Made by a program: the position numbers and the translations under genes | The notes under the pieces: model-generated | What the model saw: only the letters and a program-made list of their open reading frames with translations | Databases searched by the model: none | What the model was told of the DNA's origin: nothing | Part shown: positions 5,801 through 51,722 of the stretch, piece after piece | Layout of the letters: every line of letters begins with the position of its first letter | How positions within the stretch are numbered: position 1 is the first letter of the stretch | Assembly: GCA_001898625.1 (NCBI GenBank) | Contig: MKUP01000011.1 | Location: 270,680 to 334,679, forward strand | Length of the DNA: 64,000 nucleotides | Source of the DNA: Burkholderiales bacterium 67-32 | GTDB lineage: Bacteria > Pseudomonadota > Gammaproteobacteria > Burkholderiales > Burkholderiaceae_B | Direction: 5' to 3'

Positions 5801-5881
5801 GACCCAGGGCACAGCGGATCCGGCTTTGCCGGTCCGCCAGTGCCGCCCCCTTGGGGGGCGCGCGCAAGCGCGTAGGGGGGG
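5801..5881 (-). repeat. Palindromic repeat, copy A (between msrP and msrQ)
   Basis: First of six related GC-rich elements in the window. Read on the minus strand it begins with a C-run right after the msrP stop (5882-5884) and contains three hairpins: a short CGCGC/GCGCG stem, a GCCCCC/GGGGGC stem, and a longer stem with core CCGGC/GCCGG, flank GCGGA/TCCGC and outer GGCAC/GTGCC. It ends in CCCTGGG. No run of T follows, so it is not a standard intrinsic terminator. It resembles REP-type intergenic repeats in layout; any function is inference. Confidence 0.85.
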
Positions 5882-6847
5882 TCAATAATCCCTCGCCAGG
5901 TCCATGCCGGCGTAGAGGCTGGCGACCTGGTCGCCGTAGCCGTTGAACATCAGCGTCTTGCGCTTGGGCGAGAACAGGCCGTCCTCGCCGATGCGGCGCT
6001 CGGACGCCTGGCTCCAGCGCGGATGGGGCACGTTGGGATTCACATTGGCGTAGAAACCGTATTCCTGCGGCGCGGCCTTGACCCAACTGGTGGCGGGCTG
6101 TTTTTCCACGAAACGTATCTTCACCAGCGATTTGCCCGACTTGAAGCCGTATTTCCAGGGCACCACCACGCGCACGGGGGCACCATTCTGGTTGGGCAGG
6201 GTTTCGCCGTAGACGCCGAAGGTGAGCAGGGTCAGCGGCTGCATGGCCTCGTCCATGCGCAGCGCCTCGACATAGGGCCAGTCGAGCACGCGCGTGCGCA
6301 GTCCGGGCATGGTGTCGGGCTGCACGGCGGTGACGAACTCGACGAAGCGGGCGTTGCCGGTGGGCTCGACCCGACGGATCAGCGCCGCCAGCGAATACCC
6401 CGTCCAGGGAATCACCATGGACCAGCCCTCGACGCAGCGCAGCCTGTAGACCCGCTCTTCCAGCGGCGCCAGCTTGCGAAGATCGTCCAGGGACAGCACC
6501 TGCGGCTTCTTGACCTCGCCCTCGATCGCGACGGTCCAGGGCGACGTGCGGAAACGCCCCGCGTAATCCGAGGGATCACCCTTGTCGGTGCCGAATTCGT
6601 AGAAATTGTTGTAGGTGGTGACGTCCTTCTGCGAGGTCGGCTTGTCCATCACCACGAAAGCGCCATTGCGCTGCGCCGCCAGCTTCACGCCCGTCGTCTG
6701 CGCGAACGCCTGCCGATCGCTCCACCCCGCCAGCCCCATCGCCGACGCGGCCAGCCCCGCCTGCAACATCCACCGCCGCCGCTCGCGATAGACCGCCTCG
6801 GGCGTGATCTCGGAAGGCAAAATATCGGCAGGCCTGCGTATCAGCAT
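5882..6847 (-). CDS. msrP: MsrP, periplasmic methionine sulfoxide reductase catalytic subunit
   Basis: MsrP (YedY) is the molybdopterin enzyme that reduces methionine sulfoxide in periplasmic proteins using electrons from MsrQ. The 321-residue protein has a twin-arginine export signal ([21 protein letters not shown], residues 21-41), a sulfite-oxidase-type fold and the molybdenum-ligand cysteine in [10 protein letters not shown] (Cys138). Length fits the family (about 320-335). The ATG is at 6847 with GGAG a few bases upstream. Its 5' leader contains an inverted copy of the repeat (6871-6954), and another copy abuts its stop codon, so the transcript is bracketed by two such elements. Confidence 0.95.
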
Positions 6848-6870
6848 GACGGTCTCCAGTCCGTATAAAG

Positions 6871-6954
6871 CCCACCCCGTACCCGCTTACGCGGGCCCCC
6901 TCAAGGGGGCGACGCGGGTGGACCGGCAAAGCCGGATCCACCGCATCCTGGGTT
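6871..6954 (+). repeat. Palindromic repeat, copy B (inverted, upstream of msrP)
   Basis: Same element as copy A but in the opposite orientation, lying between the end of the cytochrome-assembly gene (7026) and the start of msrP. The hairpin core CCGGC/GCCGG is kept; the flank is GTGGA/TCCAC instead of GCGGA/TCCGC (a compensated change) and the short stem reads CCCGC/GCGGG. It is the only copy that does not touch a stop codon. It falls in the 5' untranslated region of msrP. Confidence 0.82.
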
Positions 6955-7025
6955 TAGGACCGCTATCTTGGGGTGTGGTTCCGTTGCTATCGCTGGCTGC
7001 CAGCGGTAGCAACCGTGAGCCAATG

Positions 7026-8354
7026 TCAGAGCTCCCCATAGGAGTGCAGGCCCGACAGGAACATGTTCACGCCCAGGAACGCGAAACCCGTCACCAGCAG
7101 GCCCACCAGGGCCCAGTAGGCGGCGCCGTTGCCCCGCAGGCCCTTGATCAGGCGCATGTGCAGCCAGGCCGCGTAGTTGAGCCAGACGATCAGTGCCCAG
7201 GTTTCCTTGGGATCCCACTGCCAGTAGGCACCCCAGGCGTCGGCCGCCCACAGCGCGCCCAGCACCGTGGCGACGGTAAAGAACGCGAAGCCGACGGCGA
7301 TGGCCTTGTACATGATGTCGTCCAGCACCTCGAGCGCGGGCAGGCGCTCGGCCAACTGGCGGCGGCCCATCAGGATGCCGCCGACGATCAGCGCGGCCAC
7401 GCCGGCGTAGGTCATCCAGTAGGCCGGCATGCCGGTCTGGCGGAAAATCAGCGGCTCGACCGCCAGCAGCACGCCCAGGACGAACAGCGGCGCCAGCTTC
7501 ACCCACGAGGACGTCTTGCCGTGCGCCTTGACCAGGTAGGCGAAGGCGACCATGGCGGCCAGCGAGAACGTACCGTAGCCGATGAAGTTGGCGGGCACGT
7601 GCAACTTCATCCACCAGCTTTGCAGGGCCGGCACCAGTGGCTGGATCTGCTGCGCGCCACGGTCGAAGGTGTACCAGATCAGGAAGGCGACGGCCGAGGC
7701 GATGACCAGCAGCACGAAGCCGCCCAGGCTGCGCGTGTCGTACTTGCGCTCGTAGTACAGGTAGAACAGCGCCGTGATCAGCGAGAAAAGAATGAAGACT
7801 TCGTACAGGTTGCTGACGGGGATGTAGCCGATGTCCGGGCTGAGCAGGTAGCTTTCGTGCCAGCGCACCAGGAGGCCCGTCAACCCGGCGAACACCGCGC
7901 TCCAGGTCAGCGCCGTCCCCACCCAGGCGGCAGTACCGCTGCGGGCGATCAGGCCTATCCAGTAGCATGCGGTGGCGATGACGAACAGCGCGCACATCCA
8001 CAGGATGGCGGACTGCGAGGACAGCAGGTATTTCAGGAAGAAGGCCTGGTCGGCCCGCGCGAGATCGCCCTGGTAAAGGGTGACGGCCAGGCCGCCGCTG
8101 ATGGCCACCGCGATCATCAGCGCGCGCAGCGGGCGCCACAGCCAGGCCAGCCAGGCCAGCACGACCGCCGCGCCGGCCAGGATGGCCTTGTCGTAGTAGT
8201 TCATGATCCCGCCCACCCGCTGGAACGCGAAGGCGGCACCCGCCGCCAGCAGCGCGGCGAAGGCGATGTCGGTCCAGTCGAGCCCCCTGGGGCCGTCCAT
8301 GCCCCGGCGGGGAGCCCTGCCGGCGCCGTCGCGGGCGGATGAGGTCAGTTCCAT
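7026..8354 (-). CDS. ccsB: System II cytochrome c biogenesis protein, CcsA/ResC type
   Basis: A membrane protein of 442 residues that, with the ResB/Ccs1 partner encoded just upstream, exports haem and attaches it to apocytochromes c in the periplasm. It shows at least ten hydrophobic segments and the tryptophan-rich haem-handling motif WGAYWQWDPKETWALIVWL near residue 360, with conserved histidines in the flanking helices (KLHVPANFIGYG, WLHMRL). The start ATG (8354) lies 4 bases after the resB stop, so the two are translationally coupled. NCBI names this ResC-like subunit CcsB, other literature CcsA; the symbol should be read with that in mind. A poorly conserved N-terminal extension of about 25 residues may be dispensable. 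Confidence 0.92.
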   Translation of the reverse strand: MELTSSARDGAGRAPRRGMDGPRGLDWTDIAFAALLAAGAAFAFQRVGGIMNYYDKAILAGAAVVLAWLAWLWRPLRALMIAVAISGGLAVTLYQGDLARADQAFFLKYLLSSQSAILWMCALFVIATACYWIGLIARSGTAAWVGTALTWSAVFAGLTGLLVRWHESYLLSPDIGYIPVSNLYEVFILFSLITALFYLYYERKYDTRSLGGFVLLVIASAVAFLIWYTFDRGAQQIQPLVPALQSWWMKLHVPANFIGYGTFSLAAMVAFAYLVKAHGKTSSWVKLAPLFVLGVLLAVEPLIFRQTGMPAYWMTYAGVAALIVGGILMGRRQLAERLPALEVLDDIMYKAIAVGFAFFTVATVLGALWAADAWGAYWQWDPKETWALIVWLNYAAWLHMRLIKGLRGNGAAYWALVGLLVTGFAFLGVNMFLSGLHSYGEL

Positions 8355-8358
8355 TTAG

Positions 8359-10488
8359 CTACCCTTTCTGCTGCGGCGGCAAGGCGGCGATATCCGCCTT
8401 GAGCCGTTCGAATTCCTGGTTGAAATCCAGCGTACGCCGCTGGGAAGTCATGGCCATCAAGGTCTGCGTGCCCTGTCCGTCCTGTCCCGGCTTGACCCAC
8501 AGCCAGACGCGGCGCTCGCGGATGTAGAACATCGAGAACACGCCCAGGATCAGCAGCACGCAGCCCAGGTATACCGCATTTTTACCGGGGGTCCGGCTCA
8601 ATTGGAACACGCTGGCCTGGACGTGATGGAAATCCTTCAGGCTGAGCACGACCGGCGCCGGATACAGGAACAGGTCCGACATCGCGCCCACGGCGGCCTG
8701 AGTCCAGGCCACGGCCTCGGCGGCCTCGGGACCTCCGGTGGGCAGCGCGGGCAGCCCGGCGCGTTCGCGCTCGACCGCGCGCAGCTCGGCCATGGCGCCG
8801 CCCAGCAGCTTGACCACGACGTCGGCCGCGCGCTGCTGTTCGCCGGAAGATACGTTGGTTTCCAGGAAACGGGCGATGGATTGCAGGCCGCCGTCGGCGA
8901 AGGTATCCAGCGCCCGCTCGGCCGAGGCCTGCAGTTGGGCGCTCAGTTCGCCGTCGGCGGCGCTGCCCGCGGCCAGCCGGTTGGCGTGGGCGAACCGGCG
9001 CGCGGCCTGCGCGCGGGCCTGCGGATCCTGCAGGATGGCGCGCAGCCCCAGGAATTCCTTCAGGGAGTTGTCGGCGTCGGCCGGCATGCGTACATAGCGG
9101 AAATCCTCGTCGGGATTGGTGCGCACCCCGGCCAGGAAGACCTTCACGCCGTCGACGTCGACCGGCAGCATGTAGTTGTGGAACTCGTGCGCCTGGCCGC
9201 TGGCGTCGCGCAGCTTGTACTGCACGCTGGGGCCGACGTTGCGGAAATCCTCGTTCTGGCCCACGCGGGCGGCGCTGCCGGACACCGCCGCGACGTGCTC
9301 GCGCAGGGCCTTGGGCTCGGCCGCGCCCACGCGGCCGTTGGCGAAGTTCTCGACGTTGATGGGGCGAAAGCCGCTGAACTCGACGGTCAGGTCCTTCAGC
9401 GCATCGCTGGCCGGAGCGCCATCGGCCACCAGTTGCGCGGTGCCGCCGACCTTGCCCGACACCGGGAAGGTATAGGGCTGGCCGCCGCGCAGCGCGTAGC
9501 CGGTCAGCTCCAGGGTACTGCCGCCATCGTCGAAGCTGGACTGGTAGACCGTCACGCCCTTGTAGCGCAGCGGTTCATTGACCTTGATGGTGGCGGGGAA
9601 GTGCTCGCCGGTCTCATTGTCGGTGACCTCGACCTCGCTCGCGAACAGGCGCGGCATCCCCGTGGAATAGTATTCGACGATGAATTTCTTCAGCTCGAGC
9701 GTGAACGGCAGGGGCTGGACCAGCGCGCCGTCATCCACCATGACGATGCCGTTGCGGGCCTTGCCGCCCTCGGGCACCAGCACGCTGCTGCGGAAGCTGG
9801 GGTTGCCCAGGCCCAGGCGCCCGGAGGCGGGCACGTCGGCGATGGACATGTTCTCGAACAGGGGCTTCTTGCCGGCCAGCCAGATCTGCAACCGTATCGG
9901 CAGCTCGCTGTCGAGCAGGCCGCCTATGCAGATGATGACGATGGCGGTATGGGCGAAGATGTAGCCCAGGCGGTTGCCGCTGCCCCGCTTGGCGGCCAGC
10001 AGCGTGGCCGGGCCTTCGGTCCGGGCGCGTACGGCATAGCCCTGGCGCTTGAGCAGGTCGGCCAGCGAGCCGGCCACCTGGGTTGGCGCCGCCGGCGACG
10101 CGAACTCGGCGCGGTGGTGGAAGGATCGCAGGCTGCTTTCGCGCACGTGTTCGCGGAACGAACGCATGTCGCGCACCATCTTGGGCGCGGTGCGGATGAT
10201 ACAGAGGCTGGTGGAGACCACCAGGAAACCCATGATGAGCAGGAACCACCACGCGTTGTAGACGTGATAGAGCGAGAAGGTCTCGAACACCTCGAACCAG
10301 AACTGCCCGAACTGGTTGACGTAGTTGTTCGAGGGCTGATTCTGCACCAGCACCGTCCCGACGATGCTGGCCAGGCAGATGAAGACCAACAGGCTCACGG
10401 CGAACCGCATCGAAGCCAGCAGTTCGAGCAGGTCGATGCCGAGGCCGCGCGAGGCTGGGCGGGAAGCGGAGGAAGTGGCGGTGGTCAT
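8359..10488 (-). CDS. resB: System II cytochrome c biogenesis protein ResB/Ccs1
   Basis: ResB (Ccs1) is the partner of the CcsA-type protein in System II cytochrome c maturation. The 709-residue product has three N-terminal hydrophobic segments (about residues 20-45, 75-95 and 165-185), a large periplasmic domain and a final transmembrane helix (NAVYLGCVLLILGVFSMFYI), the known ResB layout. The ATG at 10488 is chosen because it immediately precedes the conserved first helix; an upstream TTG at 10551 would run into the terminator of the preceding gene. Downstream it touches the ccsB-type gene. The run cytochrome c4, resB, ccsA-type is a conserved betaproteobacterial cluster. Confidence 0.92.
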   Translation of the reverse strand: MTTATSSASRPASRGLGIDLLELLASMRFAVSLLVFICLASIVGTVLVQNQPSNNYVNQFGQFWFEVFETFSLYHVYNAWWFLLIMGFLVVSTSLCIIRTAPKMVRDMRSFREHVRESSLRSFHHRAEFASPAAPTQVAGSLADLLKRQGYAVRARTEGPATLLAAKRGSGNRLGYIFAHTAIVIICIGGLLDSELPIRLQIWLAGKKPLFENMSIADVPASGRLGLGNPSFRSSVLVPEGGKARNGIVMVDDGALVQPLPFTLELKKFIVEYYSTGMPRLFASEVEVTDNETGEHFPATIKVNEPLRYKGVTVYQSSFDDGGSTLELTGYALRGGQPYTFPVSGKVGGTAQLVADGAPASDALKDLTVEFSGFRPINVENFANGRVGAAEPKALREHVAAVSGSAARVGQNEDFRNVGPSVQYKLRDASGQAHEFHNYMLPVDVDGVKVFLAGVRTNPDEDFRYVRMPADADNSLKEFLGLRAILQDPQARAQAARRFAHANRLAAGSAADGELSAQLQASAERALDTFADGGLQSIARFLETNVSSGEQQRAADVVVKLLGGAMAELRAVERERAGLPALPTGGPEAAEAVAWTQAAVGAMSDLFLYPAPVVLSLKDFHHVQASVFQLSRTPGKNAVYLGCVLLILGVFSMFYIRERRVWLWVKPGQDGQGTQTLMAMTSQRRTLDFNQEFERLKADIAALPPQQKG

Positions 10489-10542
10489 GATGGGTGCTGC
10501 GGACCTCGGTTCGGACAGGTCGGTTGCCGCTGGAATCCTGCC

Positions 10543-10574
10543 AAAATGCAAAAGGGGCGGAAGATCCGCCCCTT
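10543..10574 (-). terminator. Intrinsic terminator after cytochrome c4
   Basis: A perfect inverted repeat AAGGGGCGGA/TCCGCCCCTT with a 3-base loop (10552-10574), followed on the minus strand by TTTTGCATTTT. It lies 39 bases after the cytochrome c4 stop and before resB, so part of the transcription should stop here and resB probably has its own promoter or depends on read-through. Confidence 0.9.
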
Positions 10575-10612
10575 CAATGACCGCGATCGACAGCAGTGGT
10601 TCCGGGCGCGGA

Positions 10613-11293
10613 TCAGCGCAGGCCGGCGATGTAGTCGGCCACGGCCTTGATTTCAGCGTCGGTCATCTTGTTGGCGATCTGCGCCATCGGCACGTTATTG
10701 TGCCGTGCGCCGCTGCGGAAGGCCACCAGTTGGGCCTCGGTGTACTCGCCGAACTGGCCGCCCACGCGCGGATATTGCGACGGAATGCCAGCGCCGTTGG
10801 CGCTGTGGCAGGAGGCGCAGGCCGGGACGCCCTTGCTGGCGATGCCGGCGCGGAAGATGCGCTGGCCGAGTTCGACGGTGTCCTTGCTCTTGGCCACGGC
10901 GGGCTTGAGGGCCTGGGCGCCGAGGTAGGCCGAGATGTTGCGCATGTCCTCGTCGGTCAGGCCGGCGGCGTTGACGTTCATGACGGCATTGACGCGTTCG
11001 GGCGTCTTGGCGCCTTCCTTGACCTTGAAATTGACGAGTTGCTTGTAGATGTAGTCGGGATGCTGGCCGGCCAGTTTGGGATTGGCGGCGCCGGCGCTAT
11101 TGCCACCGGGGCCATGGCAACTGGCACAGGAAATGATGTTGCGGGCCGCGTCGCCGTTGGTGAACAACTGCTCACCCTTGGCCGCGTCGACCTTGGGACG
11201 GGGTTGGGCATCGGCGGCCAGGGACGGCAGAGCCACCGTCGCACCCAGGATTGCACCGCTCGCGACAAGCATCAGGGACAGCACACGCTTCAT
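10613..11293 (-). CDS. Dihaem cytochrome c4
   Basis: A periplasmic or membrane-associated electron carrier of 226 residues with two class I cytochrome c domains. It has a signal peptide (residues 1-27, ending LPSLAA), two CASCH haem-binding motifs (residues 56-60 and 159-163) and downstream methionines (Met105 in NAVMNVN; NVPMAQ in the second domain) as likely axial ligands. Cytochrome c4 usually feeds electrons to terminal oxidases. It is followed by an intrinsic terminator and then the cytochrome c assembly genes, which would mature it. Length and spacing are typical for the family. Confidence 0.95.
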   Translation of the reverse strand: MKRVLSLMLVASGAILGATVALPSLAADAQPRPKVDAAKGEQLFTNGDAARNIISCASCHGPGGNSAGAANPKLAGQHPDYIYKQLVNFKVKEGAKTPERVNAVMNVNAAGLTDEDMRNISAYLGAQALKPAVAKSKDTVELGQRIFRAGIASKGVPACASCHSANGAGIPSQYPRVGGQFGEYTEAQLVAFRSGARHNNVPMAQIANKMTDAEIKAVADYIAGLR

Positions 11294-11628
11294 GAAAACC
11301 TCGACCTAAATTCCACAATCAGGCTACGGATACGCGACTCACGGATGCCCTGCTCCTGCTGCTCCAGCCGGCGTGCGGCAGGAATTCTCCTGCAGGTGTC
11401 TCCGCGGGGCCCACCTACCCCCCACCTACTCCGTTTATCGATTCGATCCGGCTCGCGCCGGGGGTGATCGTTCTTCTACTGCGAGTTTTGTTCTACTGCC
11501 AACCCGGTTCGCCCCCCGCTCCAGCGGGGAACGCATAGGCAAGCGCAACGGCGCTTTCCTAGGTTAAGTAACCGCTTATTATAGCAACTACAACGTAGCC
11601 CATAGAAAACTATTCGGGAAGGACCATC
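11294..11628 (+). other. 335-base divergent intergenic region
   Basis: Region between the divergent cytochrome c4 and gamma carbonic anhydrase genes. It must hold both promoters. Visible are a compact hairpin CCCCGCT/AGCGGGG (11515-11530), a near-direct repeat TTCTTCTACTG / TTCTACTG (11470-11500) and an AT-rich stretch TTATTATAG (11577-11585) suited to a -10 region for the plus-strand gene. I see no supported coding sequence or known RNA. Confidence 0.5.
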
Positions 11629-12153
11629 ATGGCTGTCTACCAGCTCGGCGCCGACGCGCCCCACATTCCGGACTCGGCGTACGTGGCCGAGCAGGCCACC
11701 GTCATCGGCCGGGCCAGGCTGGGCGAAAACGCCAGCGTCTGGCCGGGCGCGGTGATCCGGGCCGACAACGACGACATCGTCCTGGGCGACTCCAGCAACA
11801 TCCAGGAAGGCGCGGTGCTGCACACCGACCCAGGGCTCAAGCTCACCATCGGCGACTACGTGACCGTCGGGCACCAGGCCATGCTGCACGGCTGTACCAT
11901 CGGCGACGGCTCGCTGATCGGCATCCAGGCCGTGGTGCTGAACCGCGCGGTCATCGGCAAGAACTGCCTGGTGGGCGCGGGCGCCATCGTGACCGAGGGC
12001 AAGGAGTTTCCCGACCGTTCGCTTATCCTGGGCGCGCCCGCCAAGGTCGTGCGCCAGCTGACCGACGAGGACATCGCCCGCATCCGGGCCGGCGTGGAAA
12101 GCTACGTGAAGCGGCAGCAGTTGTTCAAGAAGGAATTGAAGCGAGTCGGCTGA
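11629..12153 (+). CDS. Gamma-carbonic anhydrase family protein
   Basis: A 174-residue left-handed beta-helix protein built of hexapeptide repeats (for example IGRARLGENASVWPGAVIRA and the IGDGSLIGIQAVVLNRAVIG region), forming a trimer with metal sites at subunit interfaces. Metal-ligand histidines of the gamma-CA/YrdA/PaaY group are present in GAVLHTDPG (about residue 64) and VGHQAMLHGC (about residues 82 and 87). A short alpha-helical tail closes the protein. The ATG at 11629 has GGGAAGGA upstream. Many members lack measured carbonic anhydrase activity, so the reaction is not certain. It stands between cytochrome c4 and engB, which are usually adjacent. Confidence 0.9.
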   Translation: MAVYQLGADAPHIPDSAYVAEQATVIGRARLGENASVWPGAVIRADNDDIVLGDSSNIQEGAVLHTDPGLKLTIGDYVTVGHQAMLHGCTIGDGSLIGIQAVVLNRAVIGKNCLVGAGAIVTEGKEFPDRSLILGAPAKVVRQLTDEDIARIRAGVESYVKRQQLFKKELKRVG

Positions 12154-12225
12154 CGGGCGGCCGCGCCGCGGGGCCGGCCGTACAATAGCGGGTTATTGCT
12201 TAACTTCGCCGGCCGGCGACGCCCT

Positions 12226-12849
12226 GTGTCCATTCTCCATCGCGCCCATTTCACGACGTCCGCCGCCCGGCTCGACCAACTGCCCCCGCCCGGGGCGCCG
12301 GAGGTCTGCTTCGTCGGCCGCTCCAACGCCGGCAAGTCGTCGGCGATCAACGTGCTGACCCAGCAAAGGCGCCTGGCCTTCTCCAGCAAGACGCCGGGCC
12401 GCACCCGGCTGATCAACATGTTCGGCCTGCCCGACCCGCTCGAGCCCGAGCGCGACCTGGGATTCCTGGTCGACCTGCCCGGCTACGGCTATGCCTCGGT
12501 GGCCCGGGAAGACCGCTCGCAGTGGGCCCAGGTGCTGGGCGGCTACCTGCGCAACCGGTCCTCGCTGGCCGGCGTCGTGCTGCTGGTGGACATCCGCCGC
12601 GGCGTGACCGACCTGGACCGCAACCTGATCGACTGGATCGCGCCGTCCGGCAAGCCGGTACTGGCCTTGCTGACCAAGGCCGACAAGTTTCCCTACGGCC
12701 AGCGCATCAAGGCCCAGTTCGCCGTCAAGAAGGAACTGGCCGCCATCGGCGCGCTGCACACCGTACCGTTTTCCTCGACCCACCGCATCGGCCTGGACGA
12801 AGCGACCGCCCACATCGAGGGCTGGCTGATGCCCCAGGTCGCGGCATGA
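12226..12849 (+). CDS. engB: Ribosome biogenesis GTPase EngB (YihA/YsxC)
   Basis: EngB is an essential small GTPase needed for assembly of the 50S ribosomal subunit. All G motifs are visible in the 207-residue protein: GRSNAGKS (G1, about 31-38), the threonine in SKTPGRTR (G2), DLPGYG (G3, about 83), TKAD (G4, about 160) and SST (G5). I chose the GTG at 12226 because the family protein normally begins with an S-[IL]-LHRA segment; the alternative TTG at 12196 adds ten non-conserved residues. No good ribosome-binding site precedes the GTG. It is followed on the same strand by hemB after 81 bases. Confidence 0.93.
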   Translation: MSILHRAHFTTSAARLDQLPPPGAPEVCFVGRSNAGKSSAINVLTQQRRLAFSSKTPGRTRLINMFGLPDPLEPERDLGFLVDLPGYGYASVAREDRSQWAQVLGGYLRNRSSLAGVVLLVDIRRGVTDLDRNLIDWIAPSGKPVLALLTKADKFPYGQRIKAQFAVKKELAAIGALHTVPFSSTHRIGLDEATAHIEGWLMPQVAA

Positions 12850-13941
<1,092 letters not shown>

Positions 13942-13945
13942 AGCC

Positions 13946-15151: not shown

Positions 15152-15154
15152 GCC

Positions 15155-16270: not shown

Positions 16271-16283
16271 ACGCGGAGCCGCG

Positions 16284-18550: not shown

Positions 18551-18566
18551 GGCGGTCTCCATGGTT

Positions 18567-19376: not shown

Positions 19377-19377
19377 C

Positions 19378-21587: not shown

Positions 21588-21644
21588 CGCGCGCCGGCGC
21601 GATACCCGGGATGGCAATGGCACAAGGCCCATGCTATCCTGGCT

Positions 21645-21821
21645 CGCACCAGGAGAACGAAGCGGCTTGCCGCTTCTACCGAAGGCGTATCCCCTGAAAC
21701 GCTCAGGTCACGAGACTGGCAACCAAACAACTGGAGAGCGTCGCGCCCTGAACCGGCGCGGCCGCCGAAGGGGCAAGCGGCGCCGACCGGCGCGCGCGAA
21801 TCTCTCAGGCAAAAGGACAGT
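21645..21821 (+). ncRNA. Tandem glycine riboswitch aptamers
   Basis: Two consecutive glycine aptamers. The first (about 21645-21720) has the core ACCGAAGG (21678-21685) and CCTGAAACGCTCAGGT (21693-21708); the second (about 21730-21821) opens with CTGGAGAGCG and has GCCGAAGGGGCAA (21764-21776) and TCTCTCAGGCAAAAGGACAG (21801-21820). The two are joined by a short A-rich linker, as in the known class, where glycine binding in both units controls downstream expression. The region feeds straight into an intrinsic terminator in front of a FAD-dependent amino acid oxidoreductase. A poor -10 (TATCCT, 21635-21640) is the only promoter hint. Confidence 0.93.
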
Positions 21822-21862
21822 AGGGGCAAGCGGCAGACAACTGCCGCTTGCCCCTGTTTTTT
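21822..21862 (+). terminator. Riboswitch-controlled intrinsic terminator
   Basis: A perfect 15-bp hairpin (arms 21822-21836 and 21841-21855, loop ACAA) followed by G and six T. It ends 13 bases before the DadA-like start, so it is the expression platform of the glycine riboswitch. The first 13 bases of its left arm (AGGGGCAAGCGGC) also occur inside aptamer 2 at 21769-21781, giving the right arm two possible partners. Confidence 0.93.
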
Positions 21863-24854: not shown

Positions 24855-24884
24855 GTCATGTTCCAAGCCGCTAGCGCATGTCGA

Positions 24885-24931
24885 TCCAGGGCGCCGCCCC
24901 CTGGGGGGCGCCCGAAGGGCGTAGGGGGGGA
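24885..24931 (-). repeat. Palindromic repeat, copy C (short form, after the aldehyde dehydrogenase)
   Basis: A short copy abutting the aldehyde dehydrogenase stop codon (24932-24934). It keeps the C-run, the CGCCC/GGGCG stem and the GCCCCC/GGGGGC stem and the terminal CCAGGGC box, but the whole long hairpin (about 35 bases in copy A) is missing between CCAGGGC and GCCGCCCC. It occupies the 77-base gap before the GMC gene. Confidence 0.75.
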
Positions 24932-26404: not shown

Positions 26405-26466
26405 GGCGTCTCCGGTAGGTCAGTACAGTCGGTTTTCATGGCCCTGCATCCCCAGAGCCGTCCCTC

Positions 26467-26542
26467 CAGGACGCCGCGGATCCGGCTTCGCCGGTCCGCC
26501 AGCGTCGCCCCCTCGGGGGGCGCCCGCAGGGCGTAGGGGGGG
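26467..26542 (-). repeat. Palindromic repeat, copy D (after the TRAP receptor gene)
   Basis: Full-length copy that ends exactly at the stop codon (26543-26545) of the TRAP receptor gene. Its outer stem is GACGC/GCGTC where copies A and E have GGCAC/GTGCC; inner flank GCGGA/TCCGC and core CCGGC/GCCGG are unchanged, the loop is GAA, and the short stem is CGCCC/GGGCG. These are compensated changes relative to the other copies. Confidence 0.85.
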
Positions 26543-27538
26543 TCAACTCCTAAGACGGGTGGCAGCCGCGCGCAATGCCTCGTAGTCCTTGCGGGCATCG
26601 GCCGACAGCTCCTTCATCGCGGCGGGGATCACCGCGTCCAGGTAGGCCTTGGCGTCGGCCGACGGCAGCTCGATCATCTCGCCGCCGCCCTTCTCCCAGA
26701 TCGCGCGGGCCTCGGCCACGCGCGCATGCACGCGCGGACCGATCTCGGTATCGGTCTTGCGAGCGGCCTGGCGCAGCGGCTGCTCCAGCGGGCCGGCCGA
26801 TTTCAGGAAGGTGGGGCTGGCCAGCCCGACGATGGCGATGTAGGTGGACGGCAGCAGCGTCTGCGACTTGGCGACGTCGAAGTATTTCAGCGCCGACGGA
26901 ATCGGCGTGCCGGAGTAAACGCCGTCCAGCGTGCCATTCTGGAACGCGGGCAGGACCTCGCCCAGCGACATCGACACCGGGTTGGCGCCCAGTTGCCGCA
27001 GCTGCGCGATCAGGATCGAGGAACCGGGCACGCGGATCTTCTGCCCGGCCAGGTCCGACAGCTTGCGGATGGGCTTGCGCGAGACGATGCTGCACTGGGA
27101 ATGCACGAGCGTGGTCAACACCTCGACGCCCTTCTTCGAGGCGATGGACGCGAGCCTGGCCTTGACCTCGGGATCGGCCAGCACTTTCATGCCATGGTCG
27201 ATGCTGTCGAACACGCCGGGCACGGCCAGCGCGCCGAAACGCGCGTCCAGGCCCTCGTACATGCCGGAGGCGTTCAGCGCCATCTCGACGGTGCCCATGC
27301 TCACGCCTTCGATCGTGCGCTGCGCGGTACCGAGCTGGCTGGCCGGATACACCTGGCCCTTGACCTTGTTCTGCGTGGCCGCCTCCAGATTGACCTTGTA
27401 GGCGTTCAGCCAGTCGACGCCCAGGTCGTCGGACGTGGTGGTGGTGAGCTTCATGACTAGGTTCTGCGCGCGGGCGGTGGGCAGGAGCGCGAGCGCTCCC
27501 AGGCCGGCCAGATGCGCCAGGCATAGACGGCGATTCAT
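26543..27538 (-). CDS. TRAP transporter periplasmic receptor (DctP family)
   Basis: A 331-residue periplasmic solute receptor of the DctP type. It has a short signal peptide (residues 1-25, ending PTARAQ), the KVKGQVYPASQLGTAQRTIE segment near residues 60-78 and IRVPGSS... with conserved arginine that in the family binds the carboxylate of the ligand. The ATG at 27538 has GGAGA upstream. It belongs with the two membrane subunits upstream on the same strand. The ligand is unknown; the downstream alcohol and aldehyde oxidoreductases suggest a hydroxylated or carboxylated organic compound. Confidence 0.93.
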   Translation of the reverse strand: MNRRLCLAHLAGLGALALLPTARAQNLVMKLTTTTSDDLGVDWLNAYKVNLEAATQNKVKGQVYPASQLGTAQRTIEGVSMGTVEMALNASGMYEGLDARFGALAVPGVFDSIDHGMKVLADPEVKARLASIASKKGVEVLTTLVHSQCSIVSRKPIRKLSDLAGQKIRVPGSSILIAQLRQLGANPVSMSLGEVLPAFQNGTLDGVYSGTPIPSALKYFDVAKSQTLLPSTYIAIVGLASPTFLKSAGPLEQPLRQAARKTDTEIGPRVHARVAEARAIWEKGGGEMIELPSADAKAYLDAVIPAAMKELSADARKDYEALRAAATRLRS

Positions 27539-41180: not shown

Positions 41181-41199
41181 GGCGCATCCATTTACCAAA

Positions 41200-41210: not shown

Positions 41211-41304
41211 AATTTAAACAATTAACTTTACGTCTGTCGATGGGCTCGCCACCATGCGAGGCATGCGGTGCGAAACCGCCATGACGAAAAGCAGGGGACA
41301 GACA

Positions 41305-45151: not shown

Positions 45152-46131
45152 GACACGCCAAGCAACTGATCGCCGGAGCGCTGGCCGCGCTGCTCGGCCT
45201 GGCCTGCCCGCTACAGGCGGGCGCGCAACAGCCCTACCCCAACAAGCCCATCCACGTGGTCTTTCCCTATCCCACCGGATCGCCCATCGACGTCATCGGC
45301 CGCCTCATCGCCGACCGGGCCGGCAAACTGCTGGGCCAGCCCCTGGTGTTCGAGAACCGCGGAGGCGCCAACGGCATCGTCGGCACCAGCTACGCCGCCC
45401 GCATGGCGCCCGACGGCTACAACATCCACCTGACCACCACCTCGGCCCTGCTGCTCAACAGCTACCTGCGCAAGGACCTGCCCTACGAGCCGCTCAAGAG
45501 CTTCACGCCCATCACCGCCGTGGCCGACCTGCCCGTCGCGCTGATGGTCAGCGCCAAGGTGCCGGCCAACACCACGCGCGAGTTCGTCGATTACCTCAAG
45601 CGCCATCCCGGCAAGCTCAACTTCGCCAGCGTCGGCAACGGCTCGTTCAACCACCTGCTGGGCGAGCAGTTCAAGGCCGCCGCCGGCGTCGACATGCTGC
45701 ACGTGCCCTACCAGGGCGCGGGCCAGATCGCCATCGAACTGCTGGCCGGCCGGCTCGACGCCACCATCCTGAGCGTGGGCAGCCTGCTCGGGCAGTGGAA
45801 GGAAGGACAGATCAAGGTACTGGCCTTCATGACGCCCAAGCGCCATCCGCTGCATCCCGACGTGCCCGCCATCACTGAAGACTTCCCCAACTTCCGGCCC
45901 TTCGGCAACTGGATGGGTTTCGTCGCGCCGGCGGGCACGCCCGCGCCCATCGTCGCCAAGCTGGCGGACACCTTCAAGACCGTGCTCCAGCAACCCGACG
46001 TGCGCGCCAAGATCGAGGACCAGCACTGGAGCGTGATCGGCAGCAGTCCCGAGGCCTTCGCCGCGTCGCTGCGCGACGACACCGCCATCCTGCGCGCGGC
46101 CGTCGACATGGCGGGCGTCAAGCCGGAATAG
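45148..46131 (+). CDS. Bug/TctC-family periplasmic solute-binding receptor
   Basis: A 327-residue Bug receptor with a signal peptide (1-26, ending LQAGAQ), YPNKPIHVVFPYPTGSPIDV, VFENRGGANG and DGYNIHLTT. It is embedded in the catabolic operon (ATGA overlap with the esterase, 10 bases before the dioxygenase), so its ligand is probably the substrate of the pathway or a close relative. No TctA/TctB membrane components accompany it. Confidence 0.93.
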   Translation: MRHAKQLIAGALAALLGLACPLQAGAQQPYPNKPIHVVFPYPTGSPIDVIGRLIADRAGKLLGQPLVFENRGGANGIVGTSYAARMAPDGYNIHLTTTSALLLNSYLRKDLPYEPLKSFTPITAVADLPVALMVSAKVPANTTREFVDYLKRHPGKLNFASVGNGSFNHLLGEQFKAAAGVDMLHVPYQGAGQIAIELLAGRLDATILSVGSLLGQWKEGQIKVLAFMTPKRHPLHPDVPAITEDFPNFRPFGNWMGFVAPAGTPAPIVAKLADTFKTVLQQPDVRAKIEDQHWSVIGSSPEAFAASLRDDTAILRAAVDMAGVKPE

Positions 46132-46141
46132 GAGCGCGCCG

Positions 46142-47095
46142 ATGCCCGCCTCTGCCTTGACCACCCACCTCGAACGCCGCGCCGCCGTGCATTCGGTGGA
46201 TGGCTTCGTGTACTCGGTGCCCGACCTGGCCGAGGCCGAACGCTTCTACCTGGCTTTCGGCCTGGACGCGCGGCGCCAGTCCGGCCATCTCGAACTGCGC
46301 ACACACGGCCATCCCCACGTCTGGAGCCGCATCCACGAGGGGGGTGCGACCAAGCGCCTGCAATACGTGCGCTATGGCGTTCACGCGCAAGACCTGGACG
46401 CGATGCGCGCGCGTATCAAGGCCGCCGGCCTGCGAACCGATCCGCACGAACTGTCCGACGGCCAGGGCCTGTGGCTGCGCGATCCGGACGGCACGCCGCT
46501 GCAACTGGTGGTGGCGGACAAGGTCTCGCCTGCCGCCAAAAGCCCGCCCACCGCCTTCGCCCCGGTCCCGCCCGGCCAGGGCGCCGCGCCGGCCCGCAGC
46601 CGCGCGCAGCCGGTGCGGCCGCGCCACCTGTCGCACGTCCTGTTCTTCACGCCCGACGTCACGCGCATGGTGGACTTCTGCCGGACCTTCCTGGGCCTAC
46701 GCGTGTCGGACCATTCCGGCGACCTCATCGCCTTCCTGCACGGCATCCACGGCAGCGACCACCACCTCGTGGCCTTCGCCAAGTCGCACGCGCGCGGCCT
46801 GCATCACTCGAGCTGGGACGTCGGCAGCCTGGACGAGGTCGGCCGCGGCTCCGAGCAGATGCGCACTGCCGGCTACGCGCAGGGCTGGGGCGTCGGCCGG
46901 CACGTACTGGGCTCGAACTACTTCTACTATGTGCGGGACCCCTGGGGCAGTTGGGCCGAATACTCGTACGATATCGACTTCGTCCCGGCCGGCCTGGACT
47001 GGCCCGCCGCCGACCATCCGCCCGAGGATTCGCTCTACGTCTGGGGTCCGTCCCTGCCGGCCGACTTCATCACCAACCAGGAATACCCCGGATGA
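46142..47095 (+). CDS. Extradiol ring-cleavage dioxygenase (VOC superfamily, catechol 2,3-dioxygenase-like)
   Basis: A 317-residue two-domain glyoxalase-fold protein. The Fe(II) ligands of type I extradiol dioxygenases are visible: His165 (RHLSHVLFF), His221 or 222 (GLHHSSWDV) and Glu273 (WAEYSYDID), so the enzyme should cleave a catechol-type ring next to the diol. A glycine/proline-rich linker (residues 128-158) separates the two halves and is longer than usual. The ribosome-binding site AGGAG overlaps the upstream stop codon. Confidence 0.88.
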   Translation: MPASALTTHLERRAAVHSVDGFVYSVPDLAEAERFYLAFGLDARRQSGHLELRTHGHPHVWSRIHEGGATKRLQYVRYGVHAQDLDAMRARIKAAGLRTDPHELSDGQGLWLRDPDGTPLQLVVADKVSPAAKSPPTAFAPVPPGQGAAPARSRAQPVRPRHLSHVLFFTPDVTRMVDFCRTFLGLRVSDHSGDLIAFLHGIHGSDHHLVAFAKSHARGLHHSSWDVGSLDEVGRGSEQMRTAGYAQGWGVGRHVLGSNYFYYVRDPWGSWAEYSYDIDFVPAGLDWPAADHPPEDSLYVWGPSLPADFITNQEYPG

Positions 47096-47114
47096 CGGGG
47101 AAACGAGACACGCC

Positions 47115-47969
47115 ATGAGACTGATCGCCTTCAAGAACCCCGCCGGCGCGCCCGCGCTGGGTGCCCGCATTGGCAACGACGTGGTCGACCTGACCGCGCG
47201 CGGCCTGCCGGCCACGCTCGACGAATTGCTGCGCGCCCCCGGTGGCCTGGACGCCGCGCGCGCGGCTGCCGACGCGCCGGGCGAACGCCTGGCCCTGGCC
47301 GGCCTCGCCCTGCTGCCGCCGCTGCAACAGCCCGCCAAGGCCTTCGCCATCGGCCTGAACTACGTCGACCACGCGGCCGAAAGCAATTTCGCGCCGCCCG
47401 CGCATCCGGTGCTGTTCCAGCGCTTCCCGTCGTCCTGGGTGGCCCACGGGGAAGCCATCGAACGCCCCCGCGTCTCGGTGCAGTTCGACTACGAGGCCGA
47501 ACTGGTCGCGGTGATCGGCAAGGGCGGCCGCTACATTCCCAAGGAACGCGCGCTCGAGCACGTGGCGGGCTATTCGCTGTTCAACGAAGGATCGATCCGC
47601 GACTACCAGTTCCGCTCCAACCAATGGCTGTGGGGCAAGAACTTCGACCGCAGCGGCGGTTTCGGCCCGGAATTCGTCACCGCCGACGAACTGCCCCCGG
47701 GCGCCGCCGGCCTGCAGATCCAGTGCCGCCTGAACGGCCAGGTCATGCAGAACGCCAATACCCGCGACATGATCTTCGACGTCGCCACCCTGGTGGCCGC
47801 CTGCTCGGACGGCATGGCGCTGCAACCGGGCGACATGATCATCACCGGCACCCCGTCGGGCGTGGGCCTGGCGCGCAAGCCGCCGGTGTGGCTCAAGCCC
47901 GGCGACGTGTGCGAGATCGAAGTGGAAGGCGTGGGTGTGCTGCGCAACCCGGTGATCGACGAGGCCTGA
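47115..47969 (+). CDS. Fumarylacetoacetate hydrolase family protein
   Basis: A 284-residue FAH-family enzyme. QFDYEAELVAVIGKGGRYI (about 122-140) carries the metal-binding acidic residues and MIFDVATLVAACSDGMALQPG followed by GDMIITGTPSGVG is the conserved C-terminal core. Members hydrolyse or decarboxylate ring-cleavage products, so it fits as the step after the extradiol dioxygenase. It is the last gene of the operon; GGGGAAACGAG precedes the ATG. Confidence 0.9.
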   Translation: MRLIAFKNPAGAPALGARIGNDVVDLTARGLPATLDELLRAPGGLDAARAAADAPGERLALAGLALLPPLQQPAKAFAIGLNYVDHAAESNFAPPAHPVLFQRFPSSWVAHGEAIERPRVSVQFDYEAELVAVIGKGGRYIPKERALEHVAGYSLFNEGSIRDYQFRSNQWLWGKNFDRSGGFGPEFVTADELPPGAAGLQIQCRLNGQVMQNANTRDMIFDVATLVAACSDGMALQPGDMIITGTPSGVGLARKPPVWLKPGDVCEIEVEGVGVLRNPVIDEA

Positions 47970-48023
47970 ACGGCAGCCGATCGGGCCGGCAGCGCTGCCG
48001 GCCGCCTGCGCCGTGGCTATCGA

Positions 48024-48911
48024 TCAGGCCAGGTAGCGCTTGAACCAGGCGACGGTCCGCTCCCAGGCCAGCTTGGCCGCCGCCTCGTCATAGCGCGGCG
48101 TGGAGTCGTTGTGGAAGCCATGATTGGCGCCCGGGTAGATGTGCGCCTCGTAGGTCTTGCCGGCGGCCTTGAGCGCCGTCTCGTAGGCGGGCCAACCCTC
48201 ATTGATGCCCTTGTCGAGCTCGCCGTAATGCAGCAGCAGCGGCGCCTTGATGCGCGGCACATCGGCCGCGCTCGCCTGCCTGCCGTAGAACGGCACGGCG
48301 GCGGCCAATTCGGGATAGGCGACCGCCGCCGCGTTGGCCACGCCGCCGCCGTAGCAGAACCCGGTGATGCCGACCTTGCCGGTGGTCCGATCGCCTTGCA
48401 TCAGGAATTCGATGGCGGCGAAGAAATCATTCATCAGTTTGGCCGGATCGACCTGCCGTTGCAGATCGCGGCCCTTGTCATCGTTGCCGGGGTAGCCGCC
48501 GACGGAACTCAGGCCGTCGGGCGCCAACGCCAAGAACCCCGCCTTGGCCACGCGGCGCGCCACGTCTTCGATATAGGGGTTCAGGCCCCGGTTCTCGTGC
48601 ACCACGACTACGCCAGGCAATTTGCCCGTCGCCTTGGCCGGCCGCACCAGGTAGCCGCGCACCGAACCGTGGCCTTTGGGCGACGGATAAGTGATGTATT
48701 CGGCAACGATGTCCGGATCGGTGAACGACACCTGCTCGGCCAGCGCGTAGTCGGGACTCAGCGACGCCAGCAGCCCGGCGGCGGTCAGACCGCCAATCGC
48801 ATATTTGCCCGCCCGATCCAGGAACTCCCTGCGGGAGATCTTCCCGTGGACGTAGTAGTCGTACAGCTCCAGCAAATCCGGATGGAAGTCTTGCGCAGTC
48901 AGACGAGCCAT
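48024..48911 (-). CDS. Dienelactone hydrolase family protein with Tat-like signal
   Basis: A 295-residue alpha/beta hydrolase of the dienelactone hydrolase family with catalytic Cys (ITGFCYGGG), Asp (LDKGINEGW region) and His (GANHGFHND). The N-terminus carries [16 protein letters not shown] followed by a hydrophobic stretch, the pattern of a twin-arginine signal, so the enzyme is probably periplasmic. The ATG at 48911 has AGGAAA upstream. It converges on the FAH gene (54 bases between) and is separated from rplQ by an intrinsic terminator. Confidence 0.87.
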
Positions 48912-48961
48912 GGCGTTTCCTTTCCGTGTGGTCCGCGAGTGCGGACAACATACACCGGGCG

Positions 48962-48992
48962 AAAAAAAACTGCGAGACAAGCTCGCAGTTTT
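48962..48992 (-). terminator. Intrinsic terminator of the spc/alpha ribosomal operon
   Basis: On the minus strand AACTGCGAG, a short loop and CTCGCAGTT, followed by seven more T, 48 bases after the rplQ stop. This closes the rplN-rplQ transcript and insulates the dienelactone hydrolase gene. Confidence 0.92.
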
Positions 48993-49039
48993 CATTCCAA
49001 CCAGACATCCGACCGGGCACAAGCCCGGCCCCGCCTTGC

Positions 49040-49426
49040 TTACTCGGCGTCGGCGGCTTCGGCTTCCGGCGCGCGGTCGACCAGCTCCATGTAGGCCATG
49101 GGAGCGTTGTCGCCCTGGCGGAAACCCATCTTCAGGATGCGGGTGTAACCACCGTTGCGCTCCTTGAAGCGGGGGCCGATTTCGGCGAACAGCTTGACGA
49201 CCAGGTCGCGGTCGCGCAGGCGGGCAAACGCCAGGCGCTTGTTGGCCAGGGTCGGTTCCTTGCCCAGGGTGATCAGCGGCTCGACGATGCGGCGCAGTTC
49301 CTTGGCCTTGGGCACGGTGGTCTTGATGGCTTCGTGCGTGAGCAGCGAGACAGCCATGTTGCGGAACATGGCCAGACGGTGGCTGCTGGTGCGGTTCAGT
49401 TTACGGAGACCGTGACGGTGACGCAT
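49040..49426 (-). CDS. rplQ: 50S ribosomal protein L17
   Basis: L17 of the large subunit, 128 residues. [17 protein letters not shown] and [19 protein letters not shown] are the family N-terminus. The C-terminal AEAEAADAE tail is acidic. Last gene of the alpha operon, but separated from rpoA by 207 bases that contain a palindromic repeat (copy E), unlike the few-base spacing in most bacteria. Confidence 0.98.
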
Positions 49427-49551
49427 GATGACTTCCTTTATGAATCTAAAAGCGGCGGTGCCGCGGGGTTTCCAGCTCTTCTATCGGCGATTTGCCGCGG
49501 GCCGGTGAAAAATTCTTGGTACTACAACTACGTAACGAAAGAAGCTCCGCT

Positions 49552-49630
49552 ACCCAGGGCACAGCGGATCCGGCTCCGCCGGTCCGCCAGTGCCGCCCCC
49601 TGGGGGGCGCGCGTAAGCGCGTAGGGGGGA
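49552..49630 (-). repeat. Palindromic repeat, copy E (between rpoA and rplQ)
   Basis: Full-length copy nearly touching the rpoA stop codon (49634-49636). Outer stem GGCAC/GTGCC, flank GCGGA/TCCGC, core CCGGC/GCCGG with loop GGA, then the GCCCCC/GGGGGC stem and the CGCGC/GCGCG stem. Near-identical to copy A at 5.8 kb in a wholly unrelated gene context. Confidence 0.85.
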
Positions 49631-49633
49631 CCT

Positions 49634-50620
49634 CTACGGCCTTTCCAGGCCGAGAGGCGGCCAGTTTTCCAGCTTCATCCCCAGGGTCAGGCCCCGGGCA
49701 GCCAGCACTTCCTTGATCTCGTTGAGCGACTTGCGACCCAGGTTCGGGGTCTTCAGCAGTTCGTTCTCGGTACGCTGGATCAGGTCGCCGATGTAGTAGA
49801 TGTTCTCGGCCTTCAGGCAGTTGGCCGAACGGACGGTCAGTTCTAGGTCGTCCACCGGGCGCAGCAGGATCGGGTCGATCTGCGGCGTGCCACGGGCGGG
49901 CGCTTCGATGGTTTCGGTCGAGCCTTCCAGCGCGGCGAACACCGACAGCTGGTCCATCAGGATGCGGGCCGACTGGCGCACGGCTTCCTCGGGCGAGATC
50001 ACGCCGTTGGTCTCGATGTCGAGGACCAGCTTGTCCAGGTCGGTACGCTGCTCGACGCGGGCGCTTTCGACGGTGTAGCTCACGCGGCGGATCGGGCTGT
50101 ACGAAGCGTCCAGCACGATGCGGCCCACGGTACGGGCATGGTCATCGGCGAAGCTGCGCAGGTTGCCCGGCACATAGCCGCGGCCCTTCTCCACCTTCAG
50201 TTGCATTTCCAGGCGGCCGTTGTCCGTCAGGTTGGCAATGACGTGGTTGGGGTTGATGATCTCGACGTCGTGCGAGAGCTCGATATCGGCAGCCGTGACC
50301 ACGCCAGGGCCTTGCTTGCGCAGGGTCAGGACGACTTCGTCGCGGTTGTGCAGCTTGAACACCACACCCTTGAGGTTCAGCAGGATGTCGACCACGTCTT
50401 CGCGCACGCCATCGATGGCCGAGTATTCGTGCACGACACCGGTGATCTGCACTTCGGTCGGCGCGTAGCCCGCCATCGACGACAGCAGGATACGGCGCAG
50501 CGCATTGCCCAGGGTATGACCGTAGCCGCGTTCGAACGGCTCCATGATCACCTTGGCATGATTCGAGCCGATGGTCTCGACGTCGATGTTGCGCGGTTTC
50601 AGAAATGCGGCATTCGCCAT
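49634..50620 (-). CDS. rpoA: RNA polymerase alpha subunit
   Basis: The 328-residue alpha subunit: N-terminal dimerisation domain ([39 protein letters not shown]) and C-terminal domain that binds UP elements and activators ([36 protein letters not shown]). The ATG at 50620 has AAGGAAGA upstream. The gene is flanked by a terminator-like hairpin upstream and the palindromic repeat downstream. Confidence 0.98.
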
Positions 50621-50732
50621 GAATCTTCCTTATTCCTTATCAATACCCTCGGCTCGTTACACCGATAAGGCTGGGGGAAAAACGCAGTGTTGCGGGTGTT
50701 CACGGTCCGCCGATGCAGACCGCTTTTAAAGC

Positions 50733-50759
50733 CAAAAGCCGCGCTGGACCGGCGCGGCT
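50733..50759 (-). terminator. Terminator-like hairpin between rpsD and rpoA
   Basis: On the minus strand AGCCGCGC, a 7-base loop and GCGCGGCT followed by TTT; a second, weaker palindrome GCTTTT...AAAAGC overlaps it (50722-50739). The T-run is short, so this is probably an attenuator or processing site rather than a full stop inside the operon. Confidence 0.55.
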
Positions 50760-50778
50760 GTGCGAAGCGAAAAGACGC

Positions 50779-51402
50779 TTAGCGCGAATACAATTCCACG
50801 ACCATGGATTCGTTGACGTCGCGGGCGACATCGGCACGATCCGGGGCCTGCTTGAACGTGCCTTCCAGCTTGGTCGCATCGACGCTGACCCACTGCGGCA
50901 TGCCCTGGCTGGAGGCCAGTTGCAGCGCTTCCTGGATACGGGCCTGCTTCTTGGCCTTTTCACGGACGGTGATCACGTCGCCGGCCTTGACGATGATGGA
51001 CGGCACGTTGGCGGTGTGGCCGTTCAGCATCAGCGCCTTGTGGCTGACCAGCTGGCGCGCTTCGGCGCGGGTCGAGCCGAAGCCCATGCGATAGACCACG
51101 TTGTCCAGGCGCGACTCGAGCAGCTGGATCAGGTTTTCACCGGTGTTGCCCTTGCGGCGGTCGGCTTCTTCGAAGTACTTGCGGAACTGCTTTTCCAGAA
51201 TGCCGTACATGCGCTTGAGCTTTTGCTTCTCGCGCAGCTGCAGACCGTAGTCCGAGGTACGGGCACCCGAGGTGCGGCCATGCTGGCCGGGCTTGCTCTC
51301 GAGCTTGCACTTGGAATCCAGCGAACGGCGGGCGCTCTTCAGGAAGAGGTCCGTGCCTTCGCGGCGGGAAAGCTTACATTTGGGGCCAATATAACGTGCC
51401 AC
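50779..51402 (-). CDS. rpsD: 30S ribosomal protein S4
   Basis: S4 binds 16S rRNA and starts small-subunit assembly. The 207-residue product begins [20 protein letters not shown] and has the S4 RNA-binding domain ([20 protein letters not shown], about 95-115). The start is GTG at 51402 with AAGGAT upstream, an uncommon start for a ribosomal protein. There are 320 bases between this start and the rpsK stop, filled partly by a palindromic repeat, so rpsD may have its own promoter. Confidence 0.97.
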
Positions 51403-51640
51403 GATGTATCCTTTTCTCTGTCAGGCCATGCACACGCATGGCGAGGAGTTTGCCTTGGTCATTTACGTTCGATGAACCAGAACGCGGCAAACGGTGGTCT
51501 TACTCGGCGCACCCGACCCATGCCGGCCGCGCCCCCATAAAACAATGAAAACTACGTACTGCCAACAGCAAAGCCCACCATTCTACCGCGCTTTGCCCCG
51601 GACCCCGTAGGCAACGTTGCCCAAAGGGCAACGAGCCAAC
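51403..51640 (-). other. Unannotated part of the rpsK-rpsD gap
   Basis: Together with repeat copy F this makes a 320-base gap. It is less GC-rich than the genes (for example AAAACAATGAAAACTACG, 51538-51555) and ends in the rpsD ribosome-binding site. An inverted pair CGTTGCCC/GGGCAACG (51613-51632) lies just before the repeat. I see no open reading frame or known RNA; a promoter for rpsD-rpoA-rplQ is the likeliest content. Confidence 0.45.
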
Positions 51641-51722
51641 AGACCCAGGATGCGGTGGATCCGGCTCCGCCGGTCCACCCGCATCGCCCCCTGGGGGGCG
51701 CGCGAAGCGCGTAGGGGGGGGC
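51641..51722 (-). repeat. Palindromic repeat, copy F (between rpsK and rpsD)
   Basis: Full-length copy abutting the rpsK stop codon (51723-51725). The outer stem is GATGCGG/CCGCATC and the flank GTGGA/TCCAC, different from copies A, D and E but still fully paired; core CCGGC/GCCGG and the GCCCCC/GGGGGC stem are kept, and the short stem is CGCGC.../GCGCG. Confidence 0.85.

Follow-up and report, generated by a model that had tools for sequence, protein, structure and literature searches.

Repetitive extragenic palindromic (REP) sequences of Escherichia coli and Pseudomonas are dispersed palindromes at gene 3′ ends, some of them near stop codons. They occur in pairs of opposite orientation, with gene conversion between copies, and those of E. 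coli are held to act as a barrier to 3′–5′ exonucleases. One report places 446 of 4,072 putative E. coli REPs ≤15 nt from a stop codon and, citing other work, describes REPs at that distance as stalling ribosomes (PMC12306157). The ‘Bor’ repeats of Bordetellae are described as structured, REP-like and close to coding regions (Petrillo et al. 2006, PMC1590033; 2008, PMC2267715). These two papers give Bor-1 as 93–117 nt long, present in 128–196 copies and marked as intergenic; the first also names mRNA stabilisation as a REP role, and a further study includes Bordetellae in its list of REP-like families that lack terminal tags (PMC3733652). Here we analysed a family of palindromic repeats in a 64,000-nt stretch of DNA from Burkholderiales bacterium 67-32 (contig MKUP01000011.1, positions 270,680–334,679), hereafter the window, together with further stretches of this genome and of related genomes. 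Like the REPs of E. coli and Pseudomonas, these repeats are dispersed and lie at gene 3′ ends, in part directly behind stop codons.

The window repeats are very probably a REP-like, non-autonomous dispersed repeat of ~78 nt. As a whole, the observations are best explained by a REP-like repeat that turns over at its sites, exchanges stem haplotypes between copies and becomes a set of hairpins in the 3′ untranslated region (3′ UTR) of the gene that it follows, a reading to which we assign a probability of about 0.55.

To search for copies, we built a covariance model (R1) from 30 copies of the genome and set its 25-pair structure by hand. At E values up to 0.01, R1 matched the window at exactly six places, the six palindromic copies that an earlier note, made from the window sequence alone, had described. 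The stretches searched in this genome (1.64 Mb + 0.37 Mb) comprise the window, contigs C10 and C33, C23:1-40000 and the neighbourhoods of known matches rather than the whole genome, and copy numbers are to be read as ‘at least’. They hold 179 distinct matches, a few of them weak, down to 35 bits: 136 of type I, 35 of type II and 8 of type III. An exact pattern for the 5′ module occurred 149 times in the genome, and its reversed control 0 times.

Each repeat consists of a C5–6 leader and three hairpins; in many cases a downstream module, of which there are several kinds, comes next. The hairpin arms are CGCGC/GCGCG or CGCCC/GGGCG in one and GCCCCC/GGGGGC in another; the third has a long arm that ends in CCGGC/GCCGG. 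The six window copies are as follows, with distances counted from the stop codon to the start of the R1 match.

Copy A, 5802..5880, minus strand: type I; 1 nt from the stop at 5882 of an Oxidored_molyb (msrP-like) gene, with a minus-strand gene next downstream.
Copy B, 6874..6953, plus strand: type II, with leader AAGCCCACCCC and loop CTCAAG; inverted and undocked on any real gene.
Copy C, 24884..24929, minus strand: short (46 nt), without hairpin 3; 2 nt past the Aldedh stop (24932).
Copy D, 26464..26541, minus strand: type I; 1 nt past the DctP stop (26543).
Copy E, 49552..49629, minus strand: type I; 4 nt past the rpoA stop (49634) and before rplQ, in the alpha operon.
Copy F, 51643..51719, minus strand: type I; 3 nt past the rpsK stop (51723) and before rpsD, in the alpha operon.

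The earlier note had placed five of the six copies 0–4 bases past minus-strand stops, and the measured distances of 1, 2, 1, 4 and 3 nt (A, C, D, E and F) agree. Its gene names (msrP, aldehyde dehydrogenase, TRAP (tripartite ATP-independent periplasmic) receptor, rpoA and rpsK) match the Pfam families found, Oxidored_molyb, Aldedh, DctP, RpoA and ribosomal S11, respectively. At copy D, Pfam assigned DctP to the frame that ends at 26543 and matched nothing in the frame that ends at 26550. Copy B lies between two minus-strand genes, and the stop that seems to precede it comes from a frame running antisense to msrP.

Docking of this kind holds far beyond the window. A copy was counted as docked when it began 0–16 nt after a same-strand stop of an open frame passing an author-made hexamer coding score, a test that shadow frames can also pass, as the one at copy B does. 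By this count 106/179 copies were docked, 88/179 within 8 nt, compared with 5.3% within 16 nt and 2.7% within 8 nt for random intergenic placement (6,000 placements, same coding test, restricted to gaps of ≥90 nt on C10 and C33). Docking of five of the six window copies therefore exceeds chance (2.7%), and random placement and orientation, which the earlier note had named as a result that would refute it, were not what the search showed. Under a stricter gene call on C10, C33 and the window, 20/43 copies, counted by hand, lie 0–8 nt after a same-strand gene. The earlier note also gave one polarity for its five docked copies; in the family this polarity prevails, and nine of the 179 copies show the reverse arrangement (3′ end ≤16 nt from an opposite-strand stop). 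Docking recurs in two close congeners, G442 and G443 (24/36 copies, 0 reverse), and in other genera (29/49, 3 reverse), and the REP-like nature that the note had proposed is upheld outside this genome as well.

Among copies docked within 8 nt, the preceding stop is TAG in 43, TGA in 23 and TAA in 22, whereas all called genes on C10 and C33 end in TGA 796, TAG 344 and TAA 158 (chi-square ~46, by hand arithmetic). The next gene is convergent at 12/23 docked copies on these contigs, compared with 134/425 genes followed by a gap of ≥80 nt. By type, docking within 8 nt was seen in 78/136 copies of type I, 9/35 of type II and 1/8 of type III.

Two of the window sites lie in the alpha operon, which we compared across the genus. 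Among 11 genomes, this one included, 7 have a copy at the rpsK site and 6 have one at the rpoA site. The rpoA stop (L302–L312) is TAG in 6/6 genomes that carry a copy, whereas the 5/5 without one have TGA or TAA; at rpsK, TAG is found in 4/7 genomes with a copy and in 0/4 without. Since all belong to one genus, with common descent, the two occupancies and the links to TAG may each reflect one event.

Orthologous sites indicate turnover. We compared 18 sites of this genome with G442 and G443, giving 36 comparisons once three sites (6 of 42 rows), paralogous at 69–77% identity, had been removed. An alignable copy was present in 24; the other 12 had no copy, a degenerate copy or another repeat type. 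Within the window, the copy A site is empty in both congeners, where an ATG lies 1 nt after the msrP-like stop. Copy B is the same copy at the same site in both. The copy C site holds a full-length copy with the third hairpin in G443 and none in G442, and the copy D site is occupied in G442 and empty in G443. At C11:251076, G443 reads TGATCATG; this genome and G442 there carry TAG, then the copy, and the leader of the next gene is longer. Inspection by eye of a part of the filled and empty sites revealed no target-site duplication; facing copy pairs exist. The comparison here was with miniature inverted-repeat transposable elements, which combine terminal inverted repeats with such a duplication.

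The occupied sites also bear on how the stems change. Over the 24 comparisons, mean divergence was 3.2% in flanks and 4.9% in copies. Four comparisons stood out with 11–15 substitutions, in which 4–5 pairs had changed on both sides to another standard pair and none on one side; in two of the four, a further pair was also altered on both sides, to a combination that is not a standard pair. The flanks of these four diverged by 0.4–3.3%. In these block swaps one stem haplotype took the place of another, through gene conversion or exchange of the copy.

The palindromes are well kept. Across 125 distinct copies of this genome (alignment A6, 140 rows), 98.1% of cells are paired and 11 pairs carry two-sided changes. 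Covariation in A6, counted without the 43 rows of alignment A4, lay above slid controls; four of five measures exceeded every shuffle, and the fifth was reached by 14/500 shuffles. For 48 distinct copies from other genera, 97.9% of cells are paired and 17 pairs carry two-sided changes, above every shuffle. Two departures occur in the window: copy B has one C·A mismatch in its outer stem and copy C lacks hairpin 3. Five of the six copies fold more stably than their shuffles (z −1.99 to −4.08); copy C does not (z 0.18, 111/200 shuffles as good or better).

The earlier note moved from covarying stems to a selected RNA structure, an argument that these data do not support in the form given. Dispersed copies share ancestry and swap haplotypes, so covarying cells are not independent events. 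At the orthologous sites, the four block swaps account for 18 of 22 two-sided pair changes, and the other 20 comparisons contain 9 one-sided and 4 two-sided changes. Outside the swaps, an excess of compensatory over single-sided changes is thus absent at these sites, an outcome that the note had named as refuting. Matching stem changes look like whole-stem swaps, for the most part, between paralogues that share few haplotypes, and are not proof of RNA selection.

We also compared G·U with A·C cells, on the premise that a selected sense-strand RNA should tolerate G·U more than A·C. Over all pairs, the counts were 49/18 in this genome (A4 and A6), 37/1 in alignment A5, 35/3 in the other-genus alignment A7 and 18/4 in the congener alignment A8. 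With the subtype-linked pairs 5 and 14 left out, a choice made after the table had been seen, they were 10/1 in A5, 10/2 in A7 and 5/4 in A8. A5 and A7 overlap, both consist of best-scoring matches plus tandem copies, and R1, being built on sense-strand pairs, favours G·U. The test is weak and its outcome mixed. The leader adds a feature of its own: columns 2–5 are C in 91–98% of rows from this genome (A4 and A6) and in 92–100% of other-genus rows (A7). In the hairpin model the leader is unpaired yet kept, and hairpins alone thus leave its conservation unexplained.

Relative to downstream signals, a terminator-like hairpin lies within 150 nt of 30/106 docked copies, and within 230 nt of the stop in 107/1,296 genes, indicating that some copies sit between the stop and a terminator. 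A docked copy would be transcribed as the start of the 3′ UTR and would fold into stacked GC hairpins. These could hinder 3′–5′ exonucleases and so fix where mRNAs end and how stable the parts of an operon are relative to one another, as in rpsK-rpsD-rpoA-rplQ. Terminating ribosomes would also run into a copy that begins less than ~15 nt past the stop. A barrier function of docked copies, suggested by analogy with E. coli REPs, is a tentative proposal that we hold at slightly less than even odds. As no transposase of the REP-associated tyrosine transposase (RAYT) type was found in this genome, spread would rely on copying or recombination, accompanied by gene conversion among the repeats.

Several observations weigh against this reading. 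By the coding-score test 73/179 copies are undocked, and of these, too, many (15/73) have a terminator-like hairpin within 150 nt downstream. Docking within 16 nt is weaker in types II (14/35) and III (2/8) than in type I (90/136). Five congeners (L303, L304, L305, L307 and L308) carry an antisense copy between rpsD and rpoA that is absent from this genome. A third of the sites compared differ between close congeners, which suggests that many copies are dispensable. The concentration of two-sided changes in block swaps belongs here as well, as does the G·U to A·C count of 13/16 in this genome once pairs 5 and 14 are left out.

A rival view is that the repeat is a selfish or neutral mobile palindrome, copied at the DNA level, tolerated after stops because it does no harm there and without host function. 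Strongly uneven copy numbers within the genus, from 225 in G336 to 0 in G425, are in keeping with it, as are the 12 of 36 orthologous comparisons lacking an alignable copy, the nested and tandem copies described below and the absence of a sense-strand G·U preference in this genome with the two pairs left out. Tolerance alone, however, leaves the single polarity (106 versus 9) unexplained, and the rpsK and rpoA sites are widely occupied across the genus, though shared descent could explain this. We regard the selfish view as unlikely, if a serious contender.

A more far-reaching version of the 3′-UTR hairpin reading would make the repeat a mobile 3′-UTR cassette. It would arrive in the sense orientation, coupled to translation termination or transcription, go with a change of the stop towards TAG, separate neighbouring genes that adjoin each other in relatives, as at copy A, and be homogenised by hairpin-wide gene conversion, so that one module would set termination and mRNA-end behaviour for at least 100 genes. 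We rate this as improbable.

At similarly long odds, and somewhat less credible still, is an element acting at the DNA level as a cruciform or a (purine-type) intrastrand triplex on the strand opposite the gene. The order of blocks on that strand, CCCCC-loop-GGGGGG-hairpin-GGGGGG, is also that of the E. coli triplex motif TM/BoxC, which forms a triplex in vitro according to the report describing it (PMC4666352). A triplex would account for the kept, unpaired C leader, and the near equality of G·U and A·C in this genome with the two pairs left out is in keeping with an element acting as DNA. TM/BoxC likewise combines a GC-rich hairpin with a third G block and is reported as variable at homologous sites. 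In the present repeat, the spacer between G blocks holds a hairpin of its own, measures 15–16 nt in the five minus-strand window copies as opposed to loops of 1–6 nt in the published three-block search, and the copies tend to be stop-docked; the same report gives a stable triplex in vivo as unsupported, and polarity relative to the stop would be left unexplained. An intrinsic transcription terminator is hardly credible and was rejected: hairpins directly after stops, five of six folding better than shuffles, and the 30 docked copies followed by a terminator-like site might suggest one, but ≥5 T in the next 8 nt occur at just 2/106 docked copies, which sets the copy itself apart from a standard terminator, and copies F and E are followed by rpsD and rplQ, respectively, within the alpha operon.

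Returning to the REP-like reading, the repeat fits the broad description of such sequences, many extragenic palindromes near gene 3′ ends. It differs from RAYT-associated REPs in being a three-hairpin compound with a C leader. REPs are tagged GTAG/CGTC; in its own genus, the present repeat carries CTAC, which reads GTAG on the complementary strand, at the base of hairpin 1, and several copies from other genera have GAAG there. A search for RAYT genes (Y1_Tnp, PF01797) gave 0 matches in this genome and was positive in 5/14 control genomes, and a RAYT-driven REP was accordingly rejected. Among 20 genomes there was one Y1_Tnp match, a short stretch in G445 (L374, open frame of 36 aa), a genome with 1 core copy.

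Bor and Bor-1, as described, resemble the present repeat in being betaproteobacterial, structured, REP-like and near coding regions; the comparison is one of descriptions, not sequences. Bordetella hinzii gave 0 matches by R1 and 0 by a 20-nt core, with the Bor hosts B. bronchiseptica and B. pertussis not searched by name. Besides Bor, the titles and abstract openings of the open-access papers searched yielded no description of such a family in these bacteria. In an Rfam scan of the window none of the six copies matched at gathering score, and a known Rfam family was rejected. The sole match was a glycine riboswitch aptamer (RF00504, 59.9 bits) at 21721–21830 on the plus strand.

The exact 5′-module pattern occurs in 2/300 genomes of the order, this one included, and R1 matches 25/151 genomes of the family (this one included), in 7/43 genera, which indicates that diverged versions are more widespread. 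Within the genus, core-pattern counts are 167 in this genome, 225 in G336, 7 in G386, 6 in G406, 1 in G445 and 0 in G425. R1 had no match in ten named genomes, B. hinzii among them. RpoA encoded in the window shares 86% identity with that of Candidimonas and 85% with that of B. hinzii, in a comparison from which this genome's own record and close ones may be absent. On the Methylibium petroleiphilum plasmid RPME01 (L313:3001-3056), a similar hairpin with 84% identity over 71% of copy F sits inside an annotated transposase gene. An origin from plasmids or phages was rejected, with this one plasmid match and none in phages.

The repeat also occurs in compound arrangements. A third kind of 5′ module (for example GGGGCCGGGACCCGCCTTGGGGCGG) is joined to the same third hairpin at L122:10570-10635, L119:10414-10493 and L153:2659-2723, and the repeat is thus modular. 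Type II copies are nested within type I copies in L012, L022, L025 and L010; the first three share the junction GGACCGG, followed by AAGGGAA and the CCCACCCCC leader. In other genera there are tandem arrays, with five copies at 123–124 nt (L070:1501-2080) and three at 112–114 nt (L076:1501-1806). Facing copies 87–104 nt apart form composite imperfect palindromes of ~245–260 bp, whose centre is a second palindrome (L143, L086, L085 and L009) or a terminator-like hairpin (L112). A palindrome like that centre adjoins copy B in the window. The coordinates are as follows.

Second palindrome, 6983..7013 of the window, no strand assigned: GTTGCTATCGCTGGC/GCCAGCGGTAGCAAC, adjoining copy B; its like fills the centre of several facing copy pairs elsewhere.
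Composite palindrome, L143:13272-13517.
Composite palindrome, L112:454-714.
Composite palindrome, L086:1334-1578.
Composite palindrome, L085:1334-1578.
Composite palindrome, L009:1500-1746.

The role of REP-like repeats, and the way in which they spread when no transposase drives them, are long-standing questions. The present family brings many copies under one placement rule, 0–8 nt past the stop and in one polarity. It also illustrates that stem covariation among dispersed repeats can stem from haplotype swaps and is, by itself, no sign of RNA selection. Its filled and empty sites in close congeners, together with those at rpoA and rpsK across the genus, constitute natural alleles for the effects of a docked copy.

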